From: Bdellovibrionota bacterium
Lineage (GTDB): Bacteria; Bdellovibrionota_G; JALEGL01; DATDPG01
Direction: 5' to 3'
Length of the DNA: 53,426 nt
Assembly: GCA_035292885.1 (NCBI GenBank)
Contig: DATDPG010000085.1
Coordinates: forward strand, 1 to 53,426
The notes below the pieces were generated by a model. The model was given only the letters and a program-made list of their open reading frames with translations, searched no databases and was not told the origin of the DNA. This document shows, in pieces, positions 13,128-32,471 of this stretch (its first letter is position 1; each line of letters begins with the position of its first letter). A program made the translations under genes and the position numbers.

Positions 13128-13159
13128 GCTTTATGATAACATGCCGCCCCCGGACGCGA

Positions 13160-14551
13160 ATGGCGGTTCTTCTTTTAAACCCTCCCAACCCAAAAGGGTT
13201 CCAGGCCAACCGCGACTTCATGGGAAACTACGGGATGCTCAACACGCGCCCCGGCATCGTGTTGCCTCCGCTTCATCTCATACAGATGGGCGGAACCGTA
13301 CCCGCCGAAGAGGTTTTTTTTCTGGACGCGGCCGCCGAAGGCCTCTCGCTGGATGAGACACGGGAACGGATACGAAATCGACCTCCAGATATTTCGATCG
13401 TTTTGACGTCGACCCCGACCTTCGACGAAGACTGCCAAATGGCCCGTTGGCTTAAGTCGATATCGCTGAAGCCGGTTTATTTGTACGGCCCCCATCCCGC
13501 CCATGTGCAGGACGAAGCCTTTGAAAAAAGCGACGCAGACGGCATCGTCGTCGGCTACACTCCCAAGACCCTTCCCGCGCTTCTGGCGGGACCCAAACCA
13601 GCCCTGGAAGAGATCATCTATCCGGGGCACCGAAAGGATCCCCCGCCCGTCGCCCCCGCTTTCAACTTGGACGACCTCCCCTATGGTTGCTGGGAGAAGG
13701 CGCCGCTTTATCGATATCGATTCAACCTCCACGAACCGATCCCCTTTGCTACCATGCGCACCTCTCTCGGCTGTGTTTATACATGCGCCTATTGCCCGTA
13801 TGTCGTCGCTGAGGGAAACCGGTTTCTGGCGATGTCGTCCGATCGGATTTACTCCGAAATGGAGTACCTCTCATCGAAGTTTGGCGTTCGCTATATTCTG
13901 TTTCGCGATCTTCTCTTCACAGCCCAAAAAAAAAGAATCGAGCTCCTCTGCCAAAGACTGATCGAGCATCCCCTGCCGCTGAAGTGGCGGTGCGAAACAT
14001 CAACACAGCACTTGACTTCCAACCTCGTAAGTTTGCTCGCACGTGCCGGTTGCACCGGAATCAACCTCGGGGTGGAGACTATCGATGACCTCTCCGCCTC
14101 CGAAATGGACCTGATCTCAAAACGAAGGGACCTCGACCATCTACAGGCCATGTTTCGTTCCTGCCGCGAGCACGGCATCAAGGCGAATGCGCTTTTCGTG
14201 TTCGGCTTTCCTGCGGATCAGCGGAGCGGCATTCTCAAAACGATCGCCTTCGCGAAAAATCTCGACGCCGATACGGTGCAGTTCTGTGCAGCTGTGCCCT
14301 ACCCCGGGACGCAACTATTTCGCCTGGCAACGCAGGAGGGTCTGATTGAAACGTCGAAATGGGAGGATTACTCTTCGCTGCGACCCGTCATGCACACCCG
14401 ACACCTTGCAAAAAAGGACGTCCAAGAACTCATTCGCTCCGGTCTTCGATCTTTTTATTTGAAGCCGACCCGAATTAAACGCCTTGCCGGACACCCTGCG
14501 GATTTGTTGCGTCGAACCAAGGCGTTCGTAAATTTCTATTTACGACGTTGA
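13160..14551 (+). CDS. B12-binding-domain radical SAM protein (BchE-like)
   Basis: About 463 residues. The first ~150 form a cobalamin-binding-like domain (ISIVLTSTP, YLYGPHPAHV). The radical SAM core follows with C205, C209, C212 in CVYTCAYC, and the C-terminal half has NLGVETID and VFGFPAD, typical of BchE-type enzymes. These catalyse difficult cyclisations or methylations at unactivated carbon; the substrate here is unknown. The ATG at 13160 starts just before the fold; an ATG at 13133 is in frame but overlaps a TATGAT sequence. It shares its family with the gene at 30987. Confidence 0.82.
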   Translation: MAVLLLNPPNPKGFQANRDFMGNYGMLNTRPGIVLPPLHLIQMGGTVPAEEVFFLDAAAEGLSLDETRERIRNRPPDISIVLTSTPTFDEDCQMARWLKSISLKPVYLYGPHPAHVQDEAFEKSDADGIVVGYTPKTLPALLAGPKPALEEIIYPGHRKDPPPVAPAFNLDDLPYGCWEKAPLYRYRFNLHEPIPFATMRTSLGCVYTCAYCPYVVAEGNRFLAMSSDRIYSEMEYLSSKFGVRYILFRDLLFTAQKKRIELLCQRLIEHPLPLKWRCETSTQHLTSNLVSLLARAGCTGINLGVETIDDLSASEMDLISKRRDLDHLQAMFRSCREHGIKANALFVFGFPADQRSGILKTIAFAKNLDADTVQFCAAVPYPGTQLFRLATQEGLIETSKWEDYSSLRPVMHTRHLAKKDVQELIRSGLRSFYLKPTRIKRLAGHPADLLRRTKAFVNFYLRR

Positions 14552-14579
14552 TACAACTTCGCGCGGAATTGACCCTATC

Positions 14580-15551
14580 ATGAAATATCTCATTACAGGG
14601 GCGAGCGGGTTGATCGGTGGGGCGCTCCTCCGGGAACTTGTTGCGAATCAGCACGACGTGGTAGCCGTCAGCCGACACCCGCCGGTGGGCGCTCAAGACG
14701 TTGTTTGGCATAAAGGCGACATCACCAAGCCGGAATCTCTGGCTCCTGCTTTCAGCGAGAGCTACGACGTACTGATTCACCTTGCCGGGCTCGTGTCTGC
14801 GGACGGCCGAAACAGAGAGGAGCTTTTTGCGGTAAATGGCCAGGGCACTCGCAATGTTTTTGAGTGGGCGCTCAAAGCGAAGATCCGCCGATGTCTGCAA
14901 GTCAGTTCAACGGCGGCGATCGGACCTGCTCCATATGGACGCATCGCCGACGAGACCACGCCCTTCAGCTGGTCGCCGGATAAATTTGCGTATCATGCGT
15001 CGAAGCACGAAGGAGAAAAAATCGCACTTGAGTATGTGCTGAAAGGACTGGATGTGGTCGTTGTGAATCCGGCATTCGTTTACAGCGAGAAGGACGATCA
15101 CACGCCTGCGAGGGACTTGTTACGAAAGATTCGCGACCGCAGGCTACCCCTTTATCCACCCGGGGGAATGTGCAACGTCTGGGTTGGCGACGTCGTCAAA
15201 GGCATGACACGAGCTGTGGAACGCGGTCGCACGGGAGAAAGGTATATTTTGGGAGGTGAGAACCTACTCCATCGAGATTCATATGGCATCATGGCCGAGG
15301 CTCTTGGGGCCGTAATTCCCCGAATCCCAGTGGGTGTGGCAGCGCTCTATGTGTACGCCCTTACTTCCGAGATCGGGGCGCGACTTATGCGCCAGAAGCC
15401 TCGCTTCTGCCTATCCTGGGCCCGCGCCTCAAACCACACCTACTTCTACTCTTCCGAGAAGGCCGCCCGTGAACTCGCATATGCTCCTCTTGACTTCCGC
15501 AGCACGATTCAGCGCGTCGTTCCCGCCATGTTAAATGCTCGGCTCCTATGA
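14580..15551 (+). CDS. NAD-dependent epimerase/dehydratase (extended SDR)
   Basis: A 323-residue extended SDR. The nucleotide motif TGASGLIGGALL lies at residues 6-17, and the catalytic pair appears as YHASK in KFAYHASKHEGE. HLAGLVSADG and VVNPAFVYS are also typical. It resembles dihydroflavonol-reductase-like sugar or lipid reductases. It heads a long operon to 22022 and is coupled by ATGA to a glycosyltransferase. A truncated second copy of this gene lies at 16687, beside a paralogue of the same glycosyltransferase. Confidence 0.83.
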   Translation: MKYLITGASGLIGGALLRELVANQHDVVAVSRHPPVGAQDVVWHKGDITKPESLAPAFSESYDVLIHLAGLVSADGRNREELFAVNGQGTRNVFEWALKAKIRRCLQVSSTAAIGPAPYGRIADETTPFSWSPDKFAYHASKHEGEKIALEYVLKGLDVVVVNPAFVYSEKDDHTPARDLLRKIRDRRLPLYPPGGMCNVWVGDVVKGMTRAVERGRTGERYILGGENLLHRDSYGIMAEALGAVIPRIPVGVAALYVYALTSEIGARLMRQKPRFCLSWARASNHTYFYSSEKAARELAYAPLDFRSTIQRVVPAMLNARLL

Positions 15552-16686: not shown

Positions 16687-17010
16687 TTGATTGGCGTCCG
16701 CGTTCCGAGCGGCGATGAGCGCGGAAATAATTCGTCGTCCTTTATCCGTGAGCTGATAGCGGTGGGTGGAATGAAACCGGTCGCTCAAGTTCCTATGTGG
16801 ATCATGTATCTGTATGCGATTGCGGGAGAGTGCGAAGGGAGGCTCTTCGGACGATTGCCTCGCTTTTCGTTACTATGGGCGCGATCCGCAAACCATTTTC
16901 ATTTTTACAGTTCGGACAAGGCTAGGCGGGAACTTGACTACAATCCGATTGATTTCCGCGCAATGATCCAGCGAACGGCAGATGCGTTAACACGGGATAA
17001 AATGTTGTGA
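16687..17010 (+). pseudogene. Truncated NAD-dependent epimerase (C-terminal remnant)
   Basis: The last ~90 residues match the C-terminus of the intact epimerase at 14580: PRFSLLWARSANHFHFYSS here against PRFCLSWARASNHTYFYSS there, followed in both by a REL-Y-P-DFR-IQR pattern. The Rossmann domain and catalytic Tyr/Lys are missing, so it cannot be an active epimerase. Homology begins near 16735; the preceding bases back to 16475 match neither the epimerase nor anything I recognise. The remnant is still in frame up to a GTGA overlap with the next glycosyltransferase, so it may survive for translational coupling. Confidence 0.72.
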
Positions 17011-17933
17011 CACGGATGTTTCTGACGGTTGCCATCTGTACCTTCAATCGTGCAAAGGAATTAAGCCGAGCTGTGGAGAGTGTCCTTCAACAAGATTTTC
17101 CCAAAGATAGTTACGAAATCCTCATCGTAGATAACCATTCCACCGATCAGACCGCGGAACTTGGCCAGGGGTTGGAAGGAGCGCATCGGGGTCTGGTACG
17201 CTATTTTTATCAACCGGTGCCAGGACTCTCCGTCAGCCGGAATGCGGCCGCTCAGAACGCAAAAGGCGATATCGTTATCTATTTAGACGACGACGCGGTA
17301 CCGCACCCGGAGTGGCTTCTGACATACCAGAACATTTTTTCTGCGCATCCAAATTGTTTCGGAGCTGGCGGTACGATCCGTCTGATATGGGAAAATGAAA
17401 GGCCCCTTTGGCTTCGTAACGAGGACGAAGCGCTTTATACCGCGTACGATTTAGGGAGAATCGAGCGCCGGATGTCCCCTCCGGAGTTTCCAAGGGGCGC
17501 GAATATGGCATGGCGAAAGAATATCCTGCTGAAGCTCGGCGGATTTCATCCGGACACGGGTTACGACGCCTCAAAGAACGCGCTCGTATCCAACGAAGAA
17601 AAATACATGGCCTACCTTGTCTATAACCGCGGAGGGGAGATTTGGTTTGCACCGAGTGCGACCGTGGATCACCGGATCGATCAGACAAGAGCAACCCCCT
17701 CCTATTTTCTTCGAAGAGTCTATTTTCAGGGTGTCGCGGACGCTCGTTTTAGTAAATTCATTTTCAGGCGTACGGCGCCGTGGAAGATACTCCGCCGTAT
17801 GATTCACAAGATGGCTTTTTGGCGCGCAACGGCCATGCTCCGCTGGATTCCTGAATCGGAGGAACACCCCGAGTACGTCCTTTACCGGGCCAAAGAAGAA
17901 TATAATCGCGGCTATCTAAGTGAACTGAATTGA
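17007..17933 (+). CDS. Family 2 glycosyltransferase (paralogue of the gene at 15548)
   Basis: A 308-residue GT-A enzyme with VAICTFNRAKEL, ILIVDNHSTDQT, GLSVSRNAAAQ and metal motif YLDDDAVPHPEW. It has the same length and layout as the protein at 15548, with many identical residues, so the two are duplicates that have diverged, perhaps to a different donor or acceptor. The start is GTG at 17007, overlapping the stop of the epimerase remnant. Confidence 0.86.
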   Translation: MTRMFLTVAICTFNRAKELSRAVESVLQQDFPKDSYEILIVDNHSTDQTAELGQGLEGAHRGLVRYFYQPVPGLSVSRNAAAQNAKGDIVIYLDDDAVPHPEWLLTYQNIFSAHPNCFGAGGTIRLIWENERPLWLRNEDEALYTAYDLGRIERRMSPPEFPRGANMAWRKNILLKLGGFHPDTGYDASKNALVSNEEKYMAYLVYNRGGEIWFAPSATVDHRIDQTRATPSYFLRRVYFQGVADARFSKFIFRRTAPWKILRRMIHKMAFWRATAMLRWIPESEEHPEYVLYRAKEEYNRGYLSELN

Positions 17934-18814
17934 CCGTAATGAAAGAGATCGTTCTCGAAAATCAACGGCTCCGAGTCGCCGTGCTTCCGGAGGCGGGAGG
18001 CCGGATTGAATCCTTCGTCGACAAGTGTTCCGGGCGGGACTGGATCTGGAGAAACGCCCGGCTAAAACCGCAGGCCCATCCCCTTTTCACATCGTACGAC
18101 GACGTTTGGGCGGGCGGCATCGAGGAACTCTTTCCCAACGATCTTGAACAGAAGATCGGTTCCTACCGCCTCCCGGATCATGGCGAACTTTGGTCTCAAC
18201 CCTGGCGCTTGCTGGAGACAGACGGCTCAAGATTAACACTGAGCATTCGAACGCAGGTTTACCCATGTACGGTGCAAAAGCGACTCATCTTGCAGGAATC
18301 ATGTCTGACGATTTCATATACTTTGGAGAACATCGGAAACGAGTCGTTGCCATATCTCTTTAAGCTACATCCGGCTTTCGCCGTCACCTCCACGGACATT
18401 TTATGGCTTCCGGGTGGAGAGTTTTCGCGCGTGGACTCACAATTCTCGACGATGATCCGACAAGACGGATGGTTTCGATGGCCTGGAGAAGAGCAAATCG
18501 ACCAGTGCAGAGGCCCTGCGTCGCAGCTGCGTGAGTTCGTCTACGTCCGGAATTTGCCCGAAGGTCTGTGTGGCGTAAAAGACCCCACGACCGGGCGATC
18601 GGTTCGCATCCGGTTTCCGATCGATGTCCTTCCCTATTGCTGGGTCTTCATGACCTATGGCGGATGGCGCGGCCACCAGGTGGTGGTTCTGGAGCCTTGC
18701 ACGACCTATCCCAAGGATTTGAACGAAGCGATTCGGCGCCGCTCGACTCCTTTTTTGGAACCGGGAGGCGTGCGAAAGTTCGACGTGCGGTTTGACGTGG
18801 GGGCTGCGGAATGA
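17930..18814 (+). CDS. Aldose 1-epimerase/mutarotase-like protein
   Basis: A ~294-residue protein with the beta-sandwich pattern of the galactose mutarotase superfamily. The N-terminus reads LRVAVLPEAGGRIESF, with HGELWSQPW, a likely substrate-binding KLHPAF, and a C-terminal VVLEPCTTYP. The family interconverts sugar anomers or binds carbohydrates. The TTG at 17930 gives a TTGA overlap like others in this cluster; the ATG at 17939 three codons on is equally plausible. Its role may be anomer supply or glycan binding. Confidence 0.7.
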   Translation: MTVMKEIVLENQRLRVAVLPEAGGRIESFVDKCSGRDWIWRNARLKPQAHPLFTSYDDVWAGGIEELFPNDLEQKIGSYRLPDHGELWSQPWRLLETDGSRLTLSIRTQVYPCTVQKRLILQESCLTISYTLENIGNESLPYLFKLHPAFAVTSTDILWLPGGEFSRVDSQFSTMIRQDGWFRWPGEEQIDQCRGPASQLREFVYVRNLPEGLCGVKDPTTGRSVRIRFPIDVLPYCWVFMTYGGWRGHQVVVLEPCTTYPKDLNEAIRRRSTPFLEPGGVRKFDVRFDVGAAE

Positions 18815-19701
18815 AAACTCCCAAGGTTTCCGTCATCATCCGATGCTTTAACGAAGCCCATCACATCGAGAAGCTCCTTTCGGAACTGGCGCGACAAAGT
18901 TACCGACATTTTGAGATCCTCGTCGTCGACAGCGGTTCAACGGATCAAACCGTGGAGCTGGCGGGCAAATATTCTTGTCGAATCCTCCATATCGAGCGCC
19001 GGAAGTTCTCGTTCGGAGCCTCACTGAACCTGGGCTGTCGCAACGCCCAGGGCGAAATCATCTGCACGATCAGCGCCCACGCATACCCCTCGGATCGCGA
19101 ATGGCTGAAACATCTCATAGCGCCTTTTTCGGACGCTCAAATCGGCGTGGCTTACGGGAGACAGCGCGGCGCTGAATCCACGAAATTCAGCGAGCATCGG
19201 ATTTTCCGGAAATGGTTTCCGGAGGAGGCGGCCCCCTCGGCCAACGGGCCTTTTTGCAACAATGCGAATTGCGCGGTCCGCCGTTCCGTGTGGAAGGAGC
19301 TGCTCTATGATGAGAGCCTTACCGGCTTGGAGGATATTGAGTTCGCCCAGCGAGTCATTCAACGAGGTCTCAAAGTGCGATACGTCCCCTCGGCCTCGGT
19401 CGTTCACGTCCATGAGGAGGCGTGGATCCAAATATTCAATCGGTACCGCAGGGAGGCGATCGCCTTGCAGCGCATTTATCCGAACGAGCATTTCAACGTC
19501 GGGGACCTCTTCCGCTTATGGACATCCAATGTCGGGTCGGATTGTTCGGAGGCTTCTGCCCGAGGGTTATTTCCGCGCGAAGCCTGGAGTATTTTGAAGT
19601 TCCGGTCCGCGCAGTTCCTCGGCACTTTTCGTGGATTTCACCAGCGCAAGCCGGTAGATTCCGAACTCAAACGTCATCTTTTTTATCCGGACGAACCTTG
19701 A
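18811..19701 (+). CDS. Family 2 glycosyltransferase
   Basis: A 296-residue GT-A glycosyltransferase with VSVIIRCFNEAHH, ILVVDSGSTDQT and ICTISAHAYPSD. The usual Asp-x-Asp is replaced by SAHAYP, a variant seen in rhamnosyltransferase-like members. GLEDIEFAQRVIQRG provides the acceptor-side acidic motif. It starts with an ATGA overlap and ends in a TTGA overlap with the cytidylyltransferase, which suggests it may use the CMP-activated product of the genes that follow. Confidence 0.84.
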   Translation: MKTPKVSVIIRCFNEAHHIEKLLSELARQSYRHFEILVVDSGSTDQTVELAGKYSCRILHIERRKFSFGASLNLGCRNAQGEIICTISAHAYPSDREWLKHLIAPFSDAQIGVAYGRQRGAESTKFSEHRIFRKWFPEEAAPSANGPFCNNANCAVRRSVWKELLYDESLTGLEDIEFAQRVIQRGLKVRYVPSASVVHVHEEAWIQIFNRYRREAIALQRIYPNEHFNVGDLFRLWTSNVGSDCSEASARGLFPREAWSILKFRSAQFLGTFRGFHQRKPVDSELKRHLFYPDEP

Positions 19702-20366
19702 TCCAGAAACTGCCAGCCCTTTTACCCATGAAAGGGCACTCCGAGCGGGTGCCGAACAAGAACGTACGCCTCTTGGCCGGAAAGCCTCTTTGTCACCATA
19801 TCCTTGAGGCCCTGGCTTCGGCGAAATATGTCGGAGACATTTACGTCGACACCGACTCCTCCGAAATCGCCGAGACGGCCAAGACTGCCTTCAACGCTCA
19901 TATTATCGATCGCCCTCCCCGCCTGCGTGGAGATAGGATTCCGATGACCGATATCCTCGTCCATGACATCTCCTTGGTCGAGGGGGACGTTTTCCTTCAG
20001 ACGCATGCCACCAATCCGCTCCTGCGACCTGAAACCATCGATGCCGCGATCGAGGCTTTCTTCTCCGCCCCGAACGTGGATTCGCTCTTTTCCGTCACGC
20101 CGCTTCAGACACGGCTCTATTGGGAAAATGGAAGGGCCATCAATCACGATCCCGCGGTCTTGCTCCGAACCCAGGACCTGCCCCCCGTCTACGAGGAAAA
20201 CTCGAATCTCTATATCTTCACACGAACGTGCCTCGCGTCCACGGGCCGACGAATCGGGGAAAATCCGATTCTTTTCAAAATGTCCCGTGAAGAGGCGTTG
20301 GACATCGACACCGAGTACGATTTTCGGGTTGCGGAGTTATTCCATAAGGAGAAAAGAGGAACATGA
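19698..20366 (+). CDS. CMP-sugar synthetase (acylneuraminate cytidylyltransferase family)
   Basis: A 222-residue cytidylyltransferase of the CMP-NeuNAc-synthetase type. The N-terminal loop reads MKGHSERVPNKN at residues 11-22, matching the CTP-binding signature, and DIYVDTDSSEIA, FLQTHATNPLL and ALDIDTEYDF follow in family order. It activates an acid sugar with CTP. The TTG at 19698 overlaps the previous stop (TTGA); the frame is open farther upstream but those residues do not fit the family. No NeuB-type synthase is in the window, so the substrate is open. Confidence 0.82.
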   Translation: MIQKLPALLPMKGHSERVPNKNVRLLAGKPLCHHILEALASAKYVGDIYVDTDSSEIAETAKTAFNAHIIDRPPRLRGDRIPMTDILVHDISLVEGDVFLQTHATNPLLRPETIDAAIEAFFSAPNVDSLFSVTPLQTRLYWENGRAINHDPAVLLRTQDLPPVYEENSNLYIFTRTCLASTGRRIGENPILFKMSREEALDIDTEYDFRVAELFHKEKRGT

Positions 20367-21304
20367 AGAAGGCCCTGGTCAGCTGCCCCTACGCCTGGGA
20401 AAGCCTTTCCCAAGAGAAAGAACGGTTTGAAAAGGCGGGCATCGCGTTGATTCGGCCCGAGGCCGTGACCCAGCAATTAACGGAGGACGAATTATTGCGA
20501 TATGCACCGGAGATCGCCGGCATTCTTTGCGGAGACGATCCGGTGAACGATCGCGTGATTCAATCCGCGCCGAAACTCCGCGTGATCGTCAAATGGGGCG
20601 TCGGAACGGACAACATCGACATCGAGGCCGCGAAGAAACGCAGAATTCAGGTTACGAACACGCCCGGTCTGTTCTCGGACGACGTGGCCGACGTGACCAT
20701 CGCGTACATCGTTCTTCTCTTCCGCCGTCTCCACCAGATCGACGCGCGGGTTCGAAGCGGCGACTGGCATAAACCGATCGGGCGATCCCTGCAGGGGCGG
20801 GTTCTCGGAATCCTCGGCCTCGGGAACATCGGCCGCGCCGTCGCCCAGCGCGCGGTCGCAATGAAAATGGTGCCGATCGGTTACGACCCGGACTCAAAGG
20901 CGCAAGAGATCGCAAAAACCCTCGGCGTTGAAATCGTCGACCCGGACGTATTGCTTCAGAAAGCCGAGATCCTCACACTTCACTGTTCCTTGACGAAACA
21001 AACGCGCCACTTCATCGACGCCCGCTCCCTCGCCCGTTGCCGCAAAGGCGCCTTTCTCGTCAACACATCGCGCGGCGGCCTGATCGAAGAAAAGGCCCTC
21101 ATCCAAGCTCTCGGCGACGGCACGCTGGCCGCAGCCGCCCTGGACGTTTTTGAAGCCGAACCGCTGGCCGCGTCCAACGCTCTCTGCGCGCATTCCAATG
21201 TGATTCTGGGCTCGCACAACGCCTCGCACACGCTGGAGGCCATTCAGGCCGTCAACAAAGCCGCGTATGAACTTCTTTTGAACGGATTGTCCCATGCCGC
21301 CTAA
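20363..21304 (+). CDS. D-isomer-specific 2-hydroxyacid dehydrogenase
   Basis: A 313-residue NAD(P)-dependent dehydrogenase of the phosphoglycerate-dehydrogenase family. The cofactor motif is GILGLGNIGRAVAQ, the catalytic Arg lies in NTSRGG, the Glu in FEAEPL, and the His in GSHNASHT. It normally reduces a 2-keto acid or oxidises a 2-hydroxy acid. Its ATGA coupling to a cytidylyltransferase and to an SDR suggests that it builds the acid that is activated with CTP, rather than serving serine synthesis. Confidence 0.84.
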   Translation: MKKALVSCPYAWESLSQEKERFEKAGIALIRPEAVTQQLTEDELLRYAPEIAGILCGDDPVNDRVIQSAPKLRVIVKWGVGTDNIDIEAAKKRRIQVTNTPGLFSDDVADVTIAYIVLLFRRLHQIDARVRSGDWHKPIGRSLQGRVLGILGLGNIGRAVAQRAVAMKMVPIGYDPDSKAQEIAKTLGVEIVDPDVLLQKAEILTLHCSLTKQTRHFIDARSLARCRKGAFLVNTSRGGLIEEKALIQALGDGTLAAAALDVFEAEPLAASNALCAHSNVILGSHNASHTLEAIQAVNKAAYELLLNGLSHAA

Positions 21305-22022
21305 ACGGGTCTGCATCGTCACGGGAGCGTCCCGCGGCACCGGCCTAGCCATCTCCGCGAAGCTCAAGAGCCTGGGATGGCTCGTCTTTGATGTGGATAT
21401 CGACGTCCCGAAAAAAAATAACCGGCGATTCATTCGCTGCGATCTGGCGGACCCGAACTGCGGAAACATCCTTTTGAGGAATTTGAAACATCACGCCGTT
21501 CGGCGTGTCGACGGCCTGGTGAACAATGCCGCCGTATGCCCGTCACGATCCGCGATTGAATTCACCCTGGAGGAGTGGAATCGAACAATCGCCGTAAACC
21601 TTCGGGCCCCTTTCCTTCTGTCTCGAGCCCTCTGGCCTCTTCTGCGCTCCGCAAAGGGAGCCATCGTCAATGTCGCGTCCGTACACGCGCGAGCGACCCG
21701 CCCCAAGATGTCCGTCTATTCGGCGAGCAAAGGAGGTCTTGTCGCCCTGACTCAAGCGCTGGCGTTGGAGTGGGCTCCCTATGGAATCCGCGTAAACGCC
21801 GTTTTACCCGGAGCGATCAAAACGCCGATGCTCATCCAAAACCTCCGCGGGTCGGGGATTTCACTCAAGAAACTTGAAAAATCGATTCCTCTCCGCCGTG
21901 CGGGTTCCGCGCTCGAAGTAAGCGAGCTTGTAACGTTTCTCTTATCTCCCGCCTCATCGTTCGTTACCGGGCAGACATTCGTAGCCGATGGTGGAGTTCT
22001 TGCTCAACTCTCGACAACATGA
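21294..22022 (+). CDS. Short-chain dehydrogenase/reductase
   Basis: A 242-residue classical SDR with cofactor motif TGASRGTGLAIS, NNAA in GLVNNAAVCPS, catalytic Ser in NVASVHAR, and YSASKGG as the Tyr/Lys pair. A C-terminal GQTFVADGG completes the fold. It resembles PtmA-type enzymes found with cytidylyltransferases in nonulosonic acid loci, though that link is by analogy. It overlaps the preceding dehydrogenase by 11 bases and is last in the operon. Confidence 0.84.
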   Translation: MPPKRVCIVTGASRGTGLAISAKLKSLGWLVFDVDIDVPKKNNRRFIRCDLADPNCGNILLRNLKHHAVRRVDGLVNNAAVCPSRSAIEFTLEEWNRTIAVNLRAPFLLSRALWPLLRSAKGAIVNVASVHARATRPKMSVYSASKGGLVALTQALALEWAPYGIRVNAVLPGAIKTPMLIQNLRGSGISLKKLEKSIPLRRAGSALEVSELVTFLLSPASSFVTGQTFVADGGVLAQLSTT

Positions 22023-27065: not shown

Positions 27066-27878
27066 TCAGTCTTTGCTGTCCAGAGGTTTGCGGGCAATGG
27101 CATAACACAAATTCAATTGTCGCGGGTCGATTCGCCGGATGAGCAAGTCGGCGATCCTGGCCCAATGAAAACCTGCCTCATGATGGCGCGCCAAGTAAGT
27201 AACCCACTCCCAGCGCCCGCTGTCCAGAACGGGATACCATGAAGAAAGCAGCTGCAAGAGCTTTACACTGGACAACGGCTGTTCAGTATCCGATTCCGGG
27301 ATCTCGACTTCGTAGACGCGGCCTCTTTTCATTCGATTATCGAGAACCACCAATCCCATGCCCAAATAGGTAATCGCCTTTGTTAAGAACGATTCGCGAC
27401 GATCCGCGGCGGGATCGAGCACCAGAACAAAACCGCCCGGCTTCAAGATCCGGCCGACTTCATTCATCAATTTCTCCGGATTCCGCCAGAAATGATGGAC
27501 GACACTCACCAGCACAACGGCGTCTGCGATGCCGCTTCTCACCGCCGCTTCTTCGGCGTCACCCACCCAATAACTTCCCTTTCCCAAGTTTTTGGCCACT
27601 CGAGCGCCATCGGCTGAAATATCAAATCCAAAACAATTGAGACGCGGAAACGCCTCCTTTAGAAGGGTGAGGTTCACCCCAGCTCCACTTGCGAATTCAA
27701 CAACCGTCGAATCTTTGCCCGCGAGCGACTTGAGATATCTGCTAAAAGGAGCCAACGTGTGACGTCGATAAGGATGCCGTAACCACCATTCAAACATCGA
27801 TGGCGTATAGTAGTCGCGGTAAATCTGCGCCTCCAAACGCTTTTCCAACGCCGTATTTGCGAACTTGGGTTCAGCCAT
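27066..27878 (-). CDS. SAM-dependent methyltransferase
   Basis: A 270-residue class I methyltransferase. Motif I is VVEFASGAGVNLTLL, then CFGFDISADGAR, and DAVVLVSVVHHFWRNPEKL with LKPGGFVLVLDPAAD. The order and spacing fit Methyltransf_11/25 types. It is in an operon with the DUF115-like gene (overlap of 8 bases) and the Gfo/Idh/MocA oxidoreductase. A glycan-methylation role is inferred only from context. Confidence 0.8.
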   Translation of the reverse strand: MAEPKFANTALEKRLEAQIYRDYYTPSMFEWWLRHPYRRHTLAPFSRYLKSLAGKDSTVVEFASGAGVNLTLLKEAFPRLNCFGFDISADGARVAKNLGKGSYWVGDAEEAAVRSGIADAVVLVSVVHHFWRNPEKLMNEVGRILKPGGFVLVLDPAADRRESFLTKAITYLGMGLVVLDNRMKRGRVYEVEIPESDTEQPLSSVKLLQLLSSWYPVLDSGRWEWVTYLARHHEAGFHWARIADLLIRRIDPRQLNLCYAIARKPLDSKD

Positions 27879-28686
27879 TTCTATTCAATACGTCATCCAA
27901 CGACATCCGTGGAAATACTTCCAGCTTACCCCCCGCCGTAGCATTTATTATCGTTCGGCCCCGCTTTTCAAAAAGTATCTTCGCCGCGCGATACGCGAGT
28001 TCCATTCGTTCCACTTTCGGATCGTGCCACCGATATCCGGGCCCGAAATAGTCGGGATGAAAATGGTTTCGATCCTGCGACTTCGAGTGAACCACAACAC
28101 CGTCCACCTTGTCTTCAGAAGAAGGTGGCGCATACGTATGGTCGATACCCATTAAGTACACCGTTCTTGCACCAAGGTAGTAGGCCAATTGCAAATTGAG
28201 AAACGTCACGGTGCCGCCCCAAAACGCCCAGAAATCAAATCTGGATGAAAACTTTGGGAAACGCGGATACCGCCTTAGGAAATTGATGTAAATCGTATCC
28301 TCGTCCGGCGGAAGAAAACCTCGAAGATCAAACGGTATCAGTTTGGTGAAACCTCTCAATTTACGAATATCGCCCGCCCGATCCTCGGCCACGAGGCGGT
28401 CTTCTACGGTGTAGTAGGTCGGCCGGAAAGTTGTCTCCGGGAACATGAGAAATATGTTGTTGCAGGCGATGGTGATCTTGCCTGCCAGTTGTTCCAATGC
28501 GTGCCTCTTCAAGCTGGGTCCGTTCCCGATCACAAAAATATCCGAACCCAGGTGAAGATTTTTCAGGCGCCTTAAGCGATTTTCATTTTCCGACAGAGGG
28601 ATTCCGAGGGCACCCAAACCGAAACGCAGGGTGCGAACGGACGTGCGGCAGGCGCCAAGGAAGTTTGTCCCAAATGGGTGAGTCAT
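27871..28686 (-). CDS. DUF115/GT42-like putative CMP-sugar transferase
   Basis: About 271 residues. The signature IGNGPSLK (residues 53-60) followed by ACNNIF resembles the CMP-binding loop and RCNQ motif of GT42 sialyltransferases and of DUF115 motility-associated factors. YLGARTVYLMGIDHTY and HFHPDYFGPGYRW are also typical of DUF115 proteins in glycan loci. It may transfer the product of the CMP-sugar synthetase, but this is inference. In-frame starts exist at 28725 (TTG) and 28716 (ATG), but a TATAAT sits there, so I place the start at the ATG at 28686; evidence for this start is modest. Confidence 0.7.
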   Translation of the reverse strand: MTHPFGTNFLGACRTSVRTLRFGLGALGIPLSENENRLRRLKNLHLGSDIFVIGNGPSLKRHALEQLAGKITIACNNIFLMFPETTFRPTYYTVEDRLVAEDRAGDIRKLRGFTKLIPFDLRGFLPPDEDTIYINFLRRYPRFPKFSSRFDFWAFWGGTVTFLNLQLAYYLGARTVYLMGIDHTYAPPSSEDKVDGVVVHSKSQDRNHFHPDYFGPGYRWHDPKVERMELAYRAAKILFEKRGRTIINATAGGKLEVFPRMSLDDVLNRNG

Positions 28687-28714
28687 TCGAAGCGGCAGTA
28701 TTGCCGGGCAGCGC

Positions 28715-28745
28715 ATTATAGCCAATCTGACTCAAGCTGTGTTAA
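28715..28745 (-). promoter_or_regulatory. Candidate sigma-70 promoter for the DUF115-like operon
   Basis: On the minus strand TTAACA (28740-28745) and a perfect TATAAT (28715-28720) are separated by 19 bases, slightly longer than ideal. Transcription would begin near 28708, which would exclude the two upstream in-frame starts of the following gene. The same gap serves the divergent wzm gene, for which I see no clear promoter. Confidence 0.35.
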
Positions 28746-28826: not shown

Positions 28827-29684
28827 ATGTCAGACGCCATGACGCTGGAAGAAGGCCGACCTGAAGCTCCCGTGCAACACATCACTTCTCCCCTTCGATG
28901 GGTCGGTTTCGGATTTAGAGACATCGTCGTTTTTCGGGAGCTTCTCTATTTTCTCACGTTGCGCGATATTAAGGTTCGGTACAACCAAACCGTCCTGGGC
29001 ATCGCATGGGCTCTGCTTCAACCCCTTTTTTCGATGCTCATCTTCAGCCTGATCTTTCTTCGATGGGCGGGTTTGCATTCACCGGGTCGCTTTGATTCTC
29101 TGACGATTTTGACGGCGTTGGTGCCTTGGCAGCTTTTTTCCTACGCCCTGACACAGTCCTCGAACCGACTTCTGGATGACGCCGGGTTGATTCGGAAGGT
29201 ATATTTTCCAAGGATCCTTATACCCATCTCGTCTGTATTGGCGGGGCTTCTCGATTTCGCATTCGCGCTTTTACTTTTGCTCCTTTTTCTTATCGTTTCC
29301 GGCATTACGCCCTCTTGGAGAATTATTCTTGTCCCGCTGATGGTCGCGATGACGCTGGCCTCTGCATTAGGCGTCGGTTTATGGTTGTCGGCGCTGAATG
29401 CACGGTTTCGAGACGTCAAGTACACCGTCCCTTTCCTAAATCAGGTGTGGTTCTTTCTGACCCCAATCGTTTACCCGGATTCACTCATCCCGGAGGCCTG
29501 GAAACCCATTTGGAACTTGAATCCGATGACCGGCGTCGTGAATGGCTTTAGATGGGCTTTTCTCGGGAATCCATTCGATATGACCCCATATTTTCTGACT
29601 TCAGTTTTGGTGACCGTTCTTCTTTTGCTTTCCGGCTGGTTGTTTTTTCGCGGCATGGAGCGATCTTTTTCTGATTGGTTATAA
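28827..29684 (+). CDS. wzm: O-antigen/polysaccharide ABC transporter permease
   Basis: A 285-residue ABC-2 permease with about six hydrophobic segments. The N-terminus before the first helix has LLYFLTLRDIKVRYNQTVLG, the conserved amphipathic region of Wzm/TagG proteins, and ends near SFSDWL. It exports a lipid-linked polysaccharide across the inner membrane together with the ATPase that starts 9 bases downstream. It starts with ATG and is divergent from the DUF115-like operon. Confidence 0.92.
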   Translation: MSDAMTLEEGRPEAPVQHITSPLRWVGFGFRDIVVFRELLYFLTLRDIKVRYNQTVLGIAWALLQPLFSMLIFSLIFLRWAGLHSPGRFDSLTILTALVPWQLFSYALTQSSNRLLDDAGLIRKVYFPRILIPISSVLAGLLDFAFALLLLLLFLIVSGITPSWRIILVPLMVAMTLASALGVGLWLSALNARFRDVKYTVPFLNQVWFFLTPIVYPDSLIPEAWKPIWNLNPMTGVVNGFRWAFLGNPFDMTPYFLTSVLVTVLLLLSGWLFFRGMERSFSDWL

Positions 29685-29693
29685 GCGACACCC

Positions 29694-30956
29694 ATGAAAA
29701 GACTCGCCATCGAAGCCTTCGGGTTGAGCAAAAAATACCGGGTGGGAAGCAAGAGATATCACGATTCCACGCTCAGAGAGGCCCTCGTTTCCGTGGCGCG
29801 CCGGTTAAGATCCTTGTCATCGCCAAAAAGCGAAGATCTATGGGCGTTGCGCGACGCCACTTTTGAAGTAGAGGAAGGAGAGGCCCTTGCGATCGTCGGC
29901 AGAAATCGCGCAGGGAAAAGTACGCTTCTGAAAGTTCTGGGCCGAATCACGTTCCCGACCGAAGGACGCGCACTGATTCGAGGACGGGTCGGCTCACTTT
30001 TGGAGGTCGGCATGGGCTTTCATCCCGACCTAACCGGACGGGACAATATTTTTCTAAATGGAGCGATCCTTGGAATGAAAAGAGAAGAAATCCGACGGAA
30101 GTTCGACGACATCGTCGATTTTGCCGGAATCGAACGCTTCCTGGACACCCCGGTGAAACATTATTCCAGCGGTATGTACATGCGGCTTGCATTTGCGGTT
30201 GCGGCGCATTTGGAAACAGAAATTCTGCTGATCGACGAAGTTCTCGCCGTGGGAGACGCACAATTTCAAAAAAAATGCCTGCAACGAATGAAGGACGTCA
30301 CGGGTGCGGGTCGCACGATCCTCTTCGTCAGCCATAATATGGCTGCCGTCAAACGATTGTGTCAGAGGGCGATCCTGCTTTCGGATGGCCGAATGATCGA
30401 CCAAGGTCCGACCGCCGAAATTGTCGAGCGATATTTGGCGGGCCAAACTACGCAGACAACGAGTGTCACGTATCCGGACGATGCCCTCAAAACCATGCGC
30501 ATCCGCGGCGTTGAACTGCTCGGTCCCACAGGTGAACTGGCGGAGAAGATTTACGGAAGTAGGGGTTTTCGAGTGCGGATAGCTTACGACGTCAACGAAC
30601 CCGTCCACTCGGCATTCGTCTTGTGTCGCGTTCATGTGGAAGATGGAGTGACACTATTCAGCACCACCGATACGGACCTCGATCCGGGCCGGCTCGAGAC
30701 GCGCAAAACAGGCTCTTACGTGACCGAATTTACGGTCCCGCCGAAACTATTGGCGGAAGGACAGTACTTCGTGTCGGTGAGCGTAGGAATTCCTTATCAA
30801 TTCAACTTTGATCATAGGCTCGAGGCCCTAAGTTTTATGCTGGAAGACGACGGCAGCGAAACGCGCGAATGGCTTTACCGGAGCCGGCCGGGATATTTGG
30901 CGCTTGATTTTGAATGGAGAACCACTCACTGCGACTTTGTCGGATCAAAGCGCTGA
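29694..30956 (+). CDS. wzt: Polysaccharide ABC transporter ATPase with C-terminal glycan-binding domain
   Basis: A 420-residue ATPase partner of Wzm. Walker A is GRNRAGKST at 69-77, the signature is YSSGMYMRLAFA, and Walker B is LLIDEVLAVGD, with the Wzt-type arrangement. Residues ~250-420 form a separate domain after VERYLAG, like the carbohydrate-binding domain of Wzt proteins that recognise a modified chain end. R72 replaces a glycine usual in this P-loop (GRNGAGKST); GxxxxGKST is kept. The many local methyltransferases fit a methyl-capped chain. Confidence 0.92.
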   Translation: MKRLAIEAFGLSKKYRVGSKRYHDSTLREALVSVARRLRSLSSPKSEDLWALRDATFEVEEGEALAIVGRNRAGKSTLLKVLGRITFPTEGRALIRGRVGSLLEVGMGFHPDLTGRDNIFLNGAILGMKREEIRRKFDDIVDFAGIERFLDTPVKHYSSGMYMRLAFAVAAHLETEILLIDEVLAVGDAQFQKKCLQRMKDVTGAGRTILFVSHNMAAVKRLCQRAILLSDGRMIDQGPTAEIVERYLAGQTTQTTSVTYPDDALKTMRIRGVELLGPTGELAEKIYGSRGFRVRIAYDVNEPVHSAFVLCRVHVEDGVTLFSTTDTDLDPGRLETRKTGSYVTEFTVPPKLLAEGQYFVSVSVGIPYQFNFDHRLEALSFMLEDDGSETREWLYRSRPGYLALDFEWRTTHCDFVGSKR

Positions 30957-30986: not shown

Positions 30987-32471
30987 TTAGGTAATGGAAG
31001 GTTTCTTGGCTGAAAAGACGGCCGACTCTTTCTTGGCTTCATCCCAGAGATACGAGGCAAAATGCGTGAATCCGCGCAGTTTCCTCGTGAAGTCTTTCCA
31101 GTGGGCGTTCTTGAGGGCGAATTTCAGCAGGTACATCGGCCGGAAGTAAAAGTTCCGAAGACCTCGATCTACGCCGGCTTTGACTTGCTCCTTGGTCAAC
31201 CCCGGATAGCTCACGACGCCTGTCTGCTCGCCCTCCGGATCGAGCCACTTGTTCCAGTCTTTGGTCTGGAGATGGCCGTTTTCCTCGCAATACTCGAAAT
31301 ACTTGGTCCCGGGGAAAGGCATGGCCGCGGAAAACTGAAGCGTGTGTAGACCGAGATTCTTGGCGAAATCGACGGTTCTGTCGATCGTCTGCGGGGTCTC
31401 TCCCGGCAGGCCGATGACAAACGTCCCATGCACATCCAGACCGGCCTCTTTCGTGCGAACCATGAACTCCTCAGCCTGTTCCACCGTGGCCCGTTTCTGG
31501 ATGTTGTTGAGGATCTGCTGATCCCCCGACTCAAATCCTACGAGAAGCTCGCGACAGCCCGCTTTCTTGAGCATCTTCATCATATGAACGTCCGCCGTAT
31601 CGACGCGGGCGTTGACGGAAAACGTGACTTTGAGATTTCGGCGGAGAATCTCCTCGCAGATCCCTAAAGCCGTCGGCTTATGAAGTGTGAAGGTGTCATC
31701 TTCGAAAAAGAACTCGCCGCCCTTCACCACTTCCGGACAGATTTTGATGTCGTACTCCATTTCGTCGACCACCCGTTCCGGTTTTCGGACACGAAGCTTG
31801 TGGCCGTGCATGACCTGCGGCCAGAGACAAAACGTGCATTTGTGGGGGCAACCGCGGCCCGAAAAAATGTCGATGTAAGGATGAAGCTTCGTGCCGTCGA
31901 AGTACTTCAAAAGATCGAGCTGATGCCAAGAAGGATAAGGAAGCTCGTCCAAATCTTCGATCAATGGCCTGGGCGGATTCTTTTGAATGTCCCCGTCGTT
32001 CCAATAGACAAGGCCGAGGACTCCCTTGAGGTCGGGATAATTCAAAATCGCGTCGCGCACGGTGAAGTCGTATTCACCGACCGCAACCATATCGACCGCG
32101 CCTTCAGCCCGGCGGAGCGTCTGCTCGGGAAGCGAAGAGGCGTGCGGCCCGACCATGATTACAATCGAGTGGGCCGCCTTAGCTTTGACAAGACGGGCAC
32201 ACTCGATGTCGGATTGTATCGATGGAGTTGTGGAGTCCAGTACGACAAAGTCCGGTTGTTCCTTGGCAATTAGAGTTTCAAATTCCGGACGCCCCCAATC
32301 TCGGGCCGGAAAATCATAAATATGGGCATCCACACCCGCCTTTTCGAGAACTGCGGTGGCGTACGCGAGCCAATCGGGGGCCCGTAAGACCCGGCCACGA
32401 GTCTTGGCCGCCCAACGTTGGGTCCGGCAAAAATCCTTCACAAAAGGCTCGTTAATGACCAATGTTTTCAT
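30987..32471 (-). CDS. B12-binding-domain radical SAM protein (BchE-like)
   Basis: A 494-residue protein with an N-terminal cobalamin-binding-like domain (VVLDSTTPSIQSDIE and VGPHAS at ~107-112) and a radical SAM core with C208, C212, C215 in CPHKCTFC. LLVGFESGDQQIL and GTFVIGLPGET are typical of the family. It shares its family with the gene at 13160. A strong AAAGGA lies 8 bases before the ATG. It is convergent with wzt and may belong to the glycan locus or act alone. Confidence 0.84.
   Translation of the reverse strand: MKTLVINEPFVKDFCRTQRWAAKTRGRVLRAPDWLAYATAVLEKAGVDAHIYDFPARDWGRPEFETLIAKEQPDFVVLDSTTPSIQSDIECARLVKAKAAHSIVIMVGPHASSLPEQTLRRAEGAVDMVAVGEYDFTVRDAILNYPDLKGVLGLVYWNDGDIQKNPPRPLIEDLDELPYPSWHQLDLLKYFDGTKLHPYIDIFSGRGCPHKCTFCLWPQVMHGHKLRVRKPERVVDEMEYDIKICPEVVKGGEFFFEDDTFTLHKPTALGICEEILRRNLKVTFSVNARVDTADVHMMKMLKKAGCRELLVGFESGDQQILNNIQKRATVEQAEEFMVRTKEAGLDVHGTFVIGLPGETPQTIDRTVDFAKNLGLHTLQFSAAMPFPGTKYFEYCEENGHLQTKDWNKWLDPEGEQTGVVSYPGLTKEQVKAGVDRGLRNFYFRPMYLLKFALKNAHWKDFTRKLRGFTHFASYLWDEAKKESAVFSAKKPSIT

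Follow-up and report, generated by a model that had tools for sequence, protein, structure and literature searches.

A conserved gene cassette that probably directs a NeuB-independent route to a CMP-activated ulosonic acid

A trio of overlapping genes, encoding a cytidylyltransferase, a D-2-hydroxyacid dehydrogenase (2-HADH) and a short-chain dehydrogenase (SDR), probably forms the core of a route that makes a CMP-activated ulosonic acid (a 2-keto sugar acid) without NeuB. The genes lie in a 53,426-nucleotide stretch of DNA from a member of the Bdellovibrionota, which is referred to here as the window. To our knowledge, all CMP-activated sugar acids (sialic, pseudaminic, legionaminic and Kdo) come from phosphoenolpyruvate (PEP)-dependent synthases of the NeuB/KdsA type or are modified products of these. 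The gene set described here is conserved, its catalytic residues are intact, and NeuB and KdsA-type synthases are absent from the draft genome. The central claim, that a CMP-ulosonate is made without NeuB, is likely to be correct; the exact oxidative order, in which an aldose passes through aldonate and 2-keto-aldonate to become a CMP-ulosonate, is put forward more tentatively.

The cytidylyltransferase gene (positions 19698–20366, forward strand) begins at a TTG codon, in agreement with the conserved N terminus of its family, and its product matches Pfam CTP_transf_3 at 90.9 bits (cut-off of 22.6). It overlaps the 2-HADH gene (20363–21304, forward strand; Pfam 2-Hacid_dh_C, 186.6 bits, and 2-Hacid_dh, 78.9 bits) by 4 bases, and the 2-HADH gene overlaps the SDR gene (21294–22022, forward strand; Pfam adh_short_C2, 182.4 bits) by 11 bases. 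A first-pass annotation of the window had described the trio as a unit coupled by 4- to 11-base overlaps; its genes, coordinates and coupling hold, but its extent does not. Overlaps of 4 bases continue upstream through a GT2 glycosyltransferase gene (17007–17933), a gene for an aldose 1-epimerase (mutarotase)-like protein (17930–18814, forward strand; Pfam Aldose_epim, 34.8 bits, cut-off of 27) and a second GT2 gene (18811–19701, forward strand; Pfam Glycos_transf_2), and the trio is therefore the tail of a six-gene run (17007–22022). The mutarotase-like gene had no relative in a search of related loci and is thus only a local member of this run; the second GT2 is a conserved member of the cassette. 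The annotation had missed that the unit also takes in the upstream GT2 and a gene for a DUF115/Maf-like protein (27871–28725, reverse strand), the latter being part of a glycan gene cluster in the window.

Relatives of the cytidylyltransferase number at least 579 in a genome scan, and the cassette ranges across Chloroflexota, cyanobacteria, Nitrospirota, Alphaproteobacteria and other groups. Neighbouring genes were counted using tblastn over 80 loci; clustering of open reading frames undercounts because longer shadow frames hid genes, among them the GT2 of the window. At 71 of the 80 loci a 2-HADH gene is found no more than 9 kb from the cytidylyltransferase gene, as it is at 52 of the 53 sampled loci flanked by 3 kb or more on each side, which establishes the pairing as part of a conserved cassette rather than a chance arrangement. 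The window-type SDR also recurs at cassette loci, relatives of the second GT2 occur within 9 kb at half of them (40 of 80) and relatives of the DUF115 protein at 44 of 80. Among eight distant loci on plasmids, where the cytidylyltransferase is 30–34% identical, none has a 2-HADH and six have NeuB and/or NeuC genes. A phage collection yielded one distant match only, and a link to phages is not supported.

The cytidylyltransferase belongs to the CTP_transf_3 (NeuA/KdsB) superfamily by Pfam score and by fold: its predicted structure (pLDDT of 90.5) best matches a CMP-Neu5Ac synthetase (6ifd; TM of 0.88), with 9t4z at 0.87. It shares with NeuA (CMP-N-acylneuraminate and CMP-Kdn synthetases; PF02348) a conserved K-x-x-S-x-R-x-x-x-K-N start and C-terminal D-I-D. 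However, its best solved relatives are only about 25–29% identical to it, the Q-x-T-S-P of NeuA is replaced in the cassette enzymes by Q-T-H-x-T-N-P, and its partner is 2-HADH where that of NeuA is NeuB. PseF is the best NCBIfam model, yet the score (89.4 bits) is far below the equivalog cut-off of 205.7, and the best KdsB model reaches 41.9 bits against 193. The cassette enzymes are also separate from PseF and LegF on the tree, with caveats. One row of the tree (L040_fam) was disregarded: it falls among the controls and probably represents another, second cytidylyltransferase at its locus. Judged from its sequence, the enzyme is a member of a distinct NeuA/KdsB-like subfamily, with Q-T-H-x-T-N-P as the signature.

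The 2-HADH has both Pfam domains of the D-2-hydroxyacid dehydrogenases, and its catalytic R237, E266 and H285 are invariant (30 of 30). It shares a fold family and these R/E/H residues with D-3-phosphoglycerate dehydrogenase (PGDH), which it resembles, and with 2-ketogluconate reductase, which is among its solved relatives. By its length it has no ACT domain, and the R-S loop of PGDH, which we take to bind phosphate, is replaced by an acidic G-D-D. The protein scores 235 bits against the PGDH equivalog cut-off of 454 and is below every NCBIfam cut-off; it would more plausibly make the keto acid. The SDR has the N-S-Y-K residues of classical SDRs (N102, S129, Y142 and K146), which do not vary in 23 of 23. 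When its profile is compared with solved structures, three of the eight best matches carry the label glucose 1-dehydrogenase or a related one, it reaches 167 bits with the NCBIfam glucose 1-dehydrogenase model (cut-off of 215), and we regard it as a candidate aldose 1-dehydrogenase. The substrates of the two dehydrogenases are not readable from sequence, and the roles and the direction (oxidation or reduction) given to them here are putative.

The genome of the window is a draft (96.68% complete, 214 contigs), in which a gap could hide a gene. Searches of this whole genome found no match to NeuB, to a KdsA-type synthase (PF00793) or to WaaA (PF04413), no HpcH/HpaI aldolase and no PF04199 hydrolase, and the enzyme of the trio is its only CTP_transf_3 protein above the Pfam cut-off. 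The lack of a NeuB-type synthase, reported at first for the window, therefore extends to the genome, and the possibility that a NeuB had been overlooked by viewing the window only is ruled out. Nor does this genome contain a nonulosonic acid pathway, without a cytidylyltransferase of its own, that the enzyme of the trio would serve. Because NeuB, the KdsA-type synthase, WaaA and HpcH are all absent and the genome has this one cytidylyltransferase above the cut-off, the earlier suggestion that a different acid is activated gains support. The cassette enzyme is likewise the sole CTP_transf_3 protein in three other carriers among the 32 scanned (G038, G043, which is Anabaena sp. FACHB-1237, and G049), and these have no NeuB match better than 1e-9.

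The DUF115 (MptE-like) protein (Pfam MptE-like, 37.4 bits) is a candidate transferase for the CMP-activated acid. Its profile matches the sialyltransferases Cst-I and Cst-II, and its predicted structure aligns with the flagellin glycosyltransferase Maf (5mu5; Z of 15.0, r.m.s.d. of 3.8 over 208 residues) and with Cst-I (2p2v; Z of 11.8). It has the GT42/Maf fold, at a sequence identity of just 12–18% to these enzymes; by Foldseek alone, the pterin kinase 8sd5 ranks above the sialyltransferases. The GT2 protein may instead be the transferase, although the DUF115 model fits this role better. From a reading of the translations only, an ABC-2 type permease and an ATPase with a C-terminal extension (28827–30956, forward strand) are probably a glycan exporter.

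In the pathway that we propose, the SDR would oxidize C1 of an aldose to a lactone, aided here by the mutarotase-like protein acting on the free sugar. In many relatives a hydrolase (PF04199, a UlaG-like metallo-β-lactamase-type (MBL) protein or SMP-30) would open the lactone, which in the window would open spontaneously or through an unlinked enzyme. The 2-HADH would then oxidize C2 of the aldonate to give the 2-keto acid, the cytidylyltransferase would join CMP to the anomeric C2, and the DUF115/Maf-like protein (or the paired GT2) would transfer the acid to a glycan for export by the ABC transporter. We favour the oxidative model because lactonase-type hydrolases of three unrelated types recur beside the cassette: a PF04199 hydrolase at 20 of 80 loci, a UlaG-like MBL protein immediately upstream at two (L067 and L100), and an SMP-30 lactonase, together with an SDR nearest to D-xylose 1-dehydrogenase, at Roseobacter loci (L004 and L005). 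Amides are also substrates of PF04199 and MBL proteins, and no lactonase lies beside the trio in the window. The Roseobacter loci resemble oxidative sugar-acid pathways of the Weimberg/Dahms type; however, those use a dehydratase and lead to catabolism, whereas the cassette has 2-HADH and CMP activation instead. Our full proposal, which we hold tentatively, is that neither a PEP-condensing synthase (NeuB/KdsA) nor an aldolase takes part, and that oxidation of an aldose, first at C1 and next at C2, would give a non-deoxy 2-ulosonic acid, which would be activated with CMP and transferred by a Maf/GT42-like enzyme.

It is unlikely that the acid arises by an aldol route, in which a small keto acid (for example, hydroxypyruvate), provided or regenerated by the 2-HADH, is joined to an aldehyde by an aldolase and the resulting ulosonate is activated with CMP, with the window a derived case whose aldolase is elsewhere. 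An HpcH/HpaI aldolase, nearest to the GarL/HpaI families, is indeed found at 20 of the 80 loci, along with a HAD hydrolase (15 loci) and an epimerase (15), and a NanQ/YhcH-type anomerase adjoins several family members. But the genome of the window lacks such an aldolase, the aldolase and the conserved GT2 occur together at none of the 80 loci, and the window-type SDR is present at just 3 of the 20 aldolase loci. At the 20 loci of this aldolase-containing sister cassette the keto acid could be aldol-derived, and the role of the 2-HADH there would need another reading. An ordinary nonulosonic pathway, with a NeuA, PseF or LegF enzyme and a NeuB hidden by a gap in the draft assembly, is rather less probable still. 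The NeuA fold and the incomplete assembly are consistent with it, and a strong NeuB match (E ≤ 1e-40) somewhere in 38 of the 50 carrier genomes tested indicates that the cassette and nonulosonic pathways tend to be found together in one genome. Against it stand the low PseF score, the replaced Q-x-T-S-P motif, the absence of NeuB from the genome itself and the lack of a strong NeuB in 12 of the 50 carriers; where NeuB clusters lie near the cassette (G024, G030, G032 and G033), there are two NeuB genes, and each is accompanied within about 5 kb by a separate cytidylyltransferase of its own.

That a 2-hydroxy acid is itself joined to CMP, as the first-pass annotation proposed, seems to us quite improbable, even though the 2-HADH is the constant partner. 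In CTP_transf_3 enzymes of known structure, the hydroxyl group that is activated is the one on the anomeric C2 of a 2-keto (ulosonic) acid, the nearest structures (NeuA and CMP-Kdn synthetase) act on 2-keto acids and anomerase-type genes neighbour some family members, all of which make a plain hydroxy acid less likely than an ulosonic acid; a Maf/GT42-like transferase would have no glycosyl donor in a CMP ester formed at a non-anomeric hydroxyl. We give very little weight to a phosphonate route, in which the 2-HADH would reduce phosphonopyruvate and the cytidylyltransferase would form a CMP-phosphonate. Phosphonate pathways include enzymes of both types, but the PEP mutase that had been noted as missing from the window is missing above the family cut-off genome-wide (one partial PEP_mutase match reaches 27.5 bits, below the cut-off of 31.5), the recurring neighbours examined showed no PEP mutase cluster, and the enzyme is a CTP_transf_3 protein with a NeuA fold. 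Replacement of KdsB in Kdo activation has the least chance of all: its position as the only such protein above the cut-off in its genome would suit that role, but the missing KdsA-type synthase and WaaA in effect rule it out, and in three carriers (G005, G026 and G053) the cassette enzyme coexists with a separate, much stronger CTP_transf_3 match (192–213 bits, KdsB-like by score).

The capsule of Klebsiella K38 holds a 3-deoxypentulosonic acid. Passages of one paper held nothing on the idea that this capsule carries the cassette genes. Ulosonic residues other than 3-deoxy forms exist, as the Escherichia coli K3 capsule holds a 4-deoxy-2-hexulosonic acid, according to a reference title in PMC10433991. 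Among CC-licensed PMC papers, a set outside which most subscription journals lie, we found no published description of the gene combination or of the expected residues, the title on the K3 capsule being the single lead. The oxidative route to a CMP-ulosonate offers a directly testable gene set of three enzymes and CTP and, if true, would provide a function for many genes annotated as acylneuraminate cytidylyltransferase, phosphoglycerate dehydrogenase and 6-hydroxymethylpterin diphosphokinase MptE-like. Should experiments confirm it, this would be a previously unknown route, leading to glycan building blocks of a new class, acidic sugars of the cell surface. A synthase-free cassette with its own cytidylyltransferase and transferase predicts an unrecognized donor and glycan residue in very many environmental bacteria.

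The cytidylyltransferase (19698–20366; Pfam CTP_transf_3, 90.9 bits), 2-hydroxyacid dehydrogenase (2-HADH; 20363–21304, both Pfam 2-hydroxyacid dehydrogenase domains matched) and classical short-chain dehydrogenase (SDR by Pfam; 21294–22022), all on the + strand, overlap by 4 and 11 bases; the first-pass annotation, which described them as a coupled trio, was correct and understated. The coupled run begins upstream with a GT2 gene (17007–17933), a mutarotase-like gene (Pfam Aldose_epim-like; 17930–18814, +) and another GT2 gene (18811–19701, +), each overlapping by 4 bases. Among the matches listed, none of the trio proteins reaches a curated NCBIfam equivalog cut-off: the cytidylyltransferase scores 89 bits against PseF (cut-off 206), the 2-HADH 235 against PGDH (454) and the SDR 167 against glucose 1-dehydrogenase (215). 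Elsewhere in the window (13133–15551), a radical SAM protein nearest to AprD4-type diol dehydratase (168 bits, cut-off 500) and HpnJ is followed by an HpnA-like NAD epimerase, by similarity a possible sugar-deoxygenating pair of the same glycan cluster; a second radical SAM-type protein (30987–32471), assigned from translation alone, adjoins an ABC exporter.

Five Alphaproteobacteria relatives of the cytidylyltransferase (45–48% identical) were found in a plasmid protein search, all five with a 2-HADH gene directly downstream; an Acuticoccus member has an HpcH/HpaI aldolase and a HAD hydrolase beside the cytidylyltransferase. A scan of genome contigs with a six-row alignment confirmed at least 579 relatives, from which we sampled 80 loci (50–56% identical) and counted neighbours by tblastn within 9 kb of the cytidylyltransferase. 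The 2-HADH was detected in 71 of the 80 loci, the window-type SDR in 51, the DUF115 protein in 44, the 18811-type GT2 in 40, aldolase and PF04199 genes in 20 each, epimerase and HAD genes in 15 each, NeuB in 13 and YhcH in 6. Where at least 3 kb lay on either side, 52 of 53 loci contain the 2-HADH (L040 is the exception); it is on the cytidylyltransferase strand in 70 of 71 loci and immediately downstream in 29 of the 71. When 16 window genes were run as tblastn queries, only five (cytidylyltransferase, 2-HADH, SDR, DUF115 and GT2) gave widely recurring close matches; the mutarotase-like gene recurred in none of the other loci. As controls we hand-picked eight distant plasmid relatives (30–34% identical) from the listed matches: no 2-HADH is annotated in the inspected stretch of any of them, and NeuB and/or NeuC genes occur in six.

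The cassette occurs in two forms. Form B (GT2, cytidylyltransferase, 2-HADH, SDR and often DUF115) is found in the window, cyanobacteria, one Nitrospirota member and most Chloroflexota loci; loci from outside Chloroflexota frequently have an inserted PF04199 gene (L011, L012, L032, L057, L066 and L078). Form A (cytidylyltransferase, aldolase, 2-HADH, epimerase and HAD) is carried by Bacteroidota, Thermodesulfobacteriota, Deferribacterota and others. GT2 and aldolase never co-occur in the 80 loci, and aldolase and window-type SDR do so in three. In the phylogenetic tree the window is the basal member of the form-B clade (92/91) and most controls are separated from the family, but the tree is only supportive because the controls form long branches and one of them, the NeuA locus L008, attaches next to the family. 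Variant loci (L039, L040, L044, L061 and L085) have an extra SIS sugar isomerase, Gfo/Idh oxidoreductase and/or dehydroquinate-synthase-like cyclase, and at least four of them a different SDR subfamily. On a Leisingera plasmid (L097), a phosphoglycerate-dehydrogenase-like gene adjoins a divergent NTP transferase, SIS, inositol monophosphatase and Gfo/Idh genes, with an SMP-30 fragment at the end of the record, which may be another version of the cassette's logic; on a Streptomyces sp. NBC_00564 plasmid (H39), an aldolase/citrate lyase family gene abuts a phosphoglycerate-dehydrogenase-like gene.

The absence of a NeuB-type synthase, reported for the window, extends to the whole draft genome (3.1 Mb in 214 contigs, the window being contig 85; 96.68% complete, 2.12% contaminated), in which we also found no KdsA/DAHP-I-type synthase, WaaA, HpcH/HpaI aldolase or PF04199 cyclase; a PEP_mutase search gave a single partial match, below threshold. 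No CTP_transf_3 other than the window's enzyme exceeds the cut-off, a second match (20.8 bits) being, judged by eye, a MobA/MocA-type protein. Thus, the missing 3% aside, the genome holds no nonulosonic acid pathway awaiting this cytidylyltransferase. Could the cassette nevertheless generally serve a NeuB product? Among 50 of the 80 carrier genomes, a NeuB match at E ≤ 1e-40 is present in 38, the chief finding that speaks against a simple reading; six have only weaker matches (1.6e-12 to 3.2e-7), probably DAHP synthases, and six have none of any strength. In four Anaerolineales genomes analysed closely (G024, G030, G032 and G033), each of two NeuB genes has its own cytidylyltransferase nearby and the cassette enzyme is a third; in another carrier, G007, the contig with the NeuB genes also has other cytidylyltransferases, and the cassette is on a different contig. 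Because the NeuB genes of the four Anaerolineales have their own enzymes, and the cassette enzyme is the only CTP_transf_3 in 3 of 32 genomes scanned (G038, G049 and Anabaena sp. FACHB-1237, G043), a NeuB product is hardly a general requirement, with the proviso that all but one or two of these genomes are drafts. A NeuB-free CMP-ulosonate core is probable. In the glycan clusters of the four Anaerolineales (L101–L107), one NeuB is accompanied by a NeuA–HAD domain fusion and the other lies near a further cytidylyltransferase; together with the cassette, these are apparently three CMP-sugar modules within a single neighbourhood.

In the known CTP_transf_3 enzymes, activation takes place at the anomeric carbon of 2-keto sugar acids. 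In alignments, cytidylyltransferase residues H103, T105, N106 and P107, which occupy the position of the NeuA Q-x-T-S-P segment, are invariant, as are D202 and D204. R237, E266 and H285 of the 2-HADH, the residues required by an active dehydrogenase, are invariant in 30 of 30 sequences, and the SDR catalytic residues in 23 of 23. Solved relatives of the 2-HADH by sequence include PGDH, glyoxylate reductase and a 2-ketogluconate reductase; replacement of the PGDH phosphate-loop R-S by G-D-D or G-V-E argues against a phosphorylated small molecule as its substrate. For the SDR, a profile search ranks dihydroanticapsin 7-dehydrogenase best among solved relatives, then a glucose 1-dehydrogenase. 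Some family members adjoin a YhcH/DUF386 gene, as would suit a substrate that is a cyclic keto acid: a protein of this type has been demonstrated to be a Neu5Ac anomerase (PMC8141875). The earlier suggestion of a different acid stands in that the pathway is not the normal nonulosonic one; a ulosonic acid is more likely than the hydroxy acid it tentatively named.

Three unrelated hydrolase types able to open lactones accompany the cassette by lineage: PF04199; MBL proteins, which lie just upstream of it in L067 and L100 and share 28% identity; and SMP-30, found in a pair of Roseobacter loci whose accompanying SDR most resembles D-xylose 1-dehydrogenase (280, cut-off 400). L100 belongs to G004, the one other carrier among five genomes of the window's phylum; no lactonase was found beside the trio in the window. 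Recurrent substitution of this kind would be expected of a lactone-opening step and argues for an oxidative route, in which the SDR would oxidise an aldose to a lactone, a hydrolase would in many relatives open this to the aldonate, and the 2-HADH would yield a 2-keto-aldonate for CMP activation; we propose this exact order, with its putative substrate, direction and product, only tentatively. Judging by form A, aldol addition may be the source of the keto acid in at least some members.

The DUF115 protein (27871–28725; Pfam MptE-like) is a candidate transferase. Its family profile best matches the Cst-I/Cst-II sialyltransferases, weakly (1e-4), and its model (pLDDT 85.1) compares with the Maf glycosyltransferase 5mu5 at Z 15.0, the pterin kinase 8sd5, the first Foldseek match, at 12.1 and Cst-I at Z 11.8. 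Maf enzymes are described in PMC11339370 as transferring nonulosonic acids to flagellin. CMP activation of sugar acids is already known; the biosynthetic logic of this cassette may be new.
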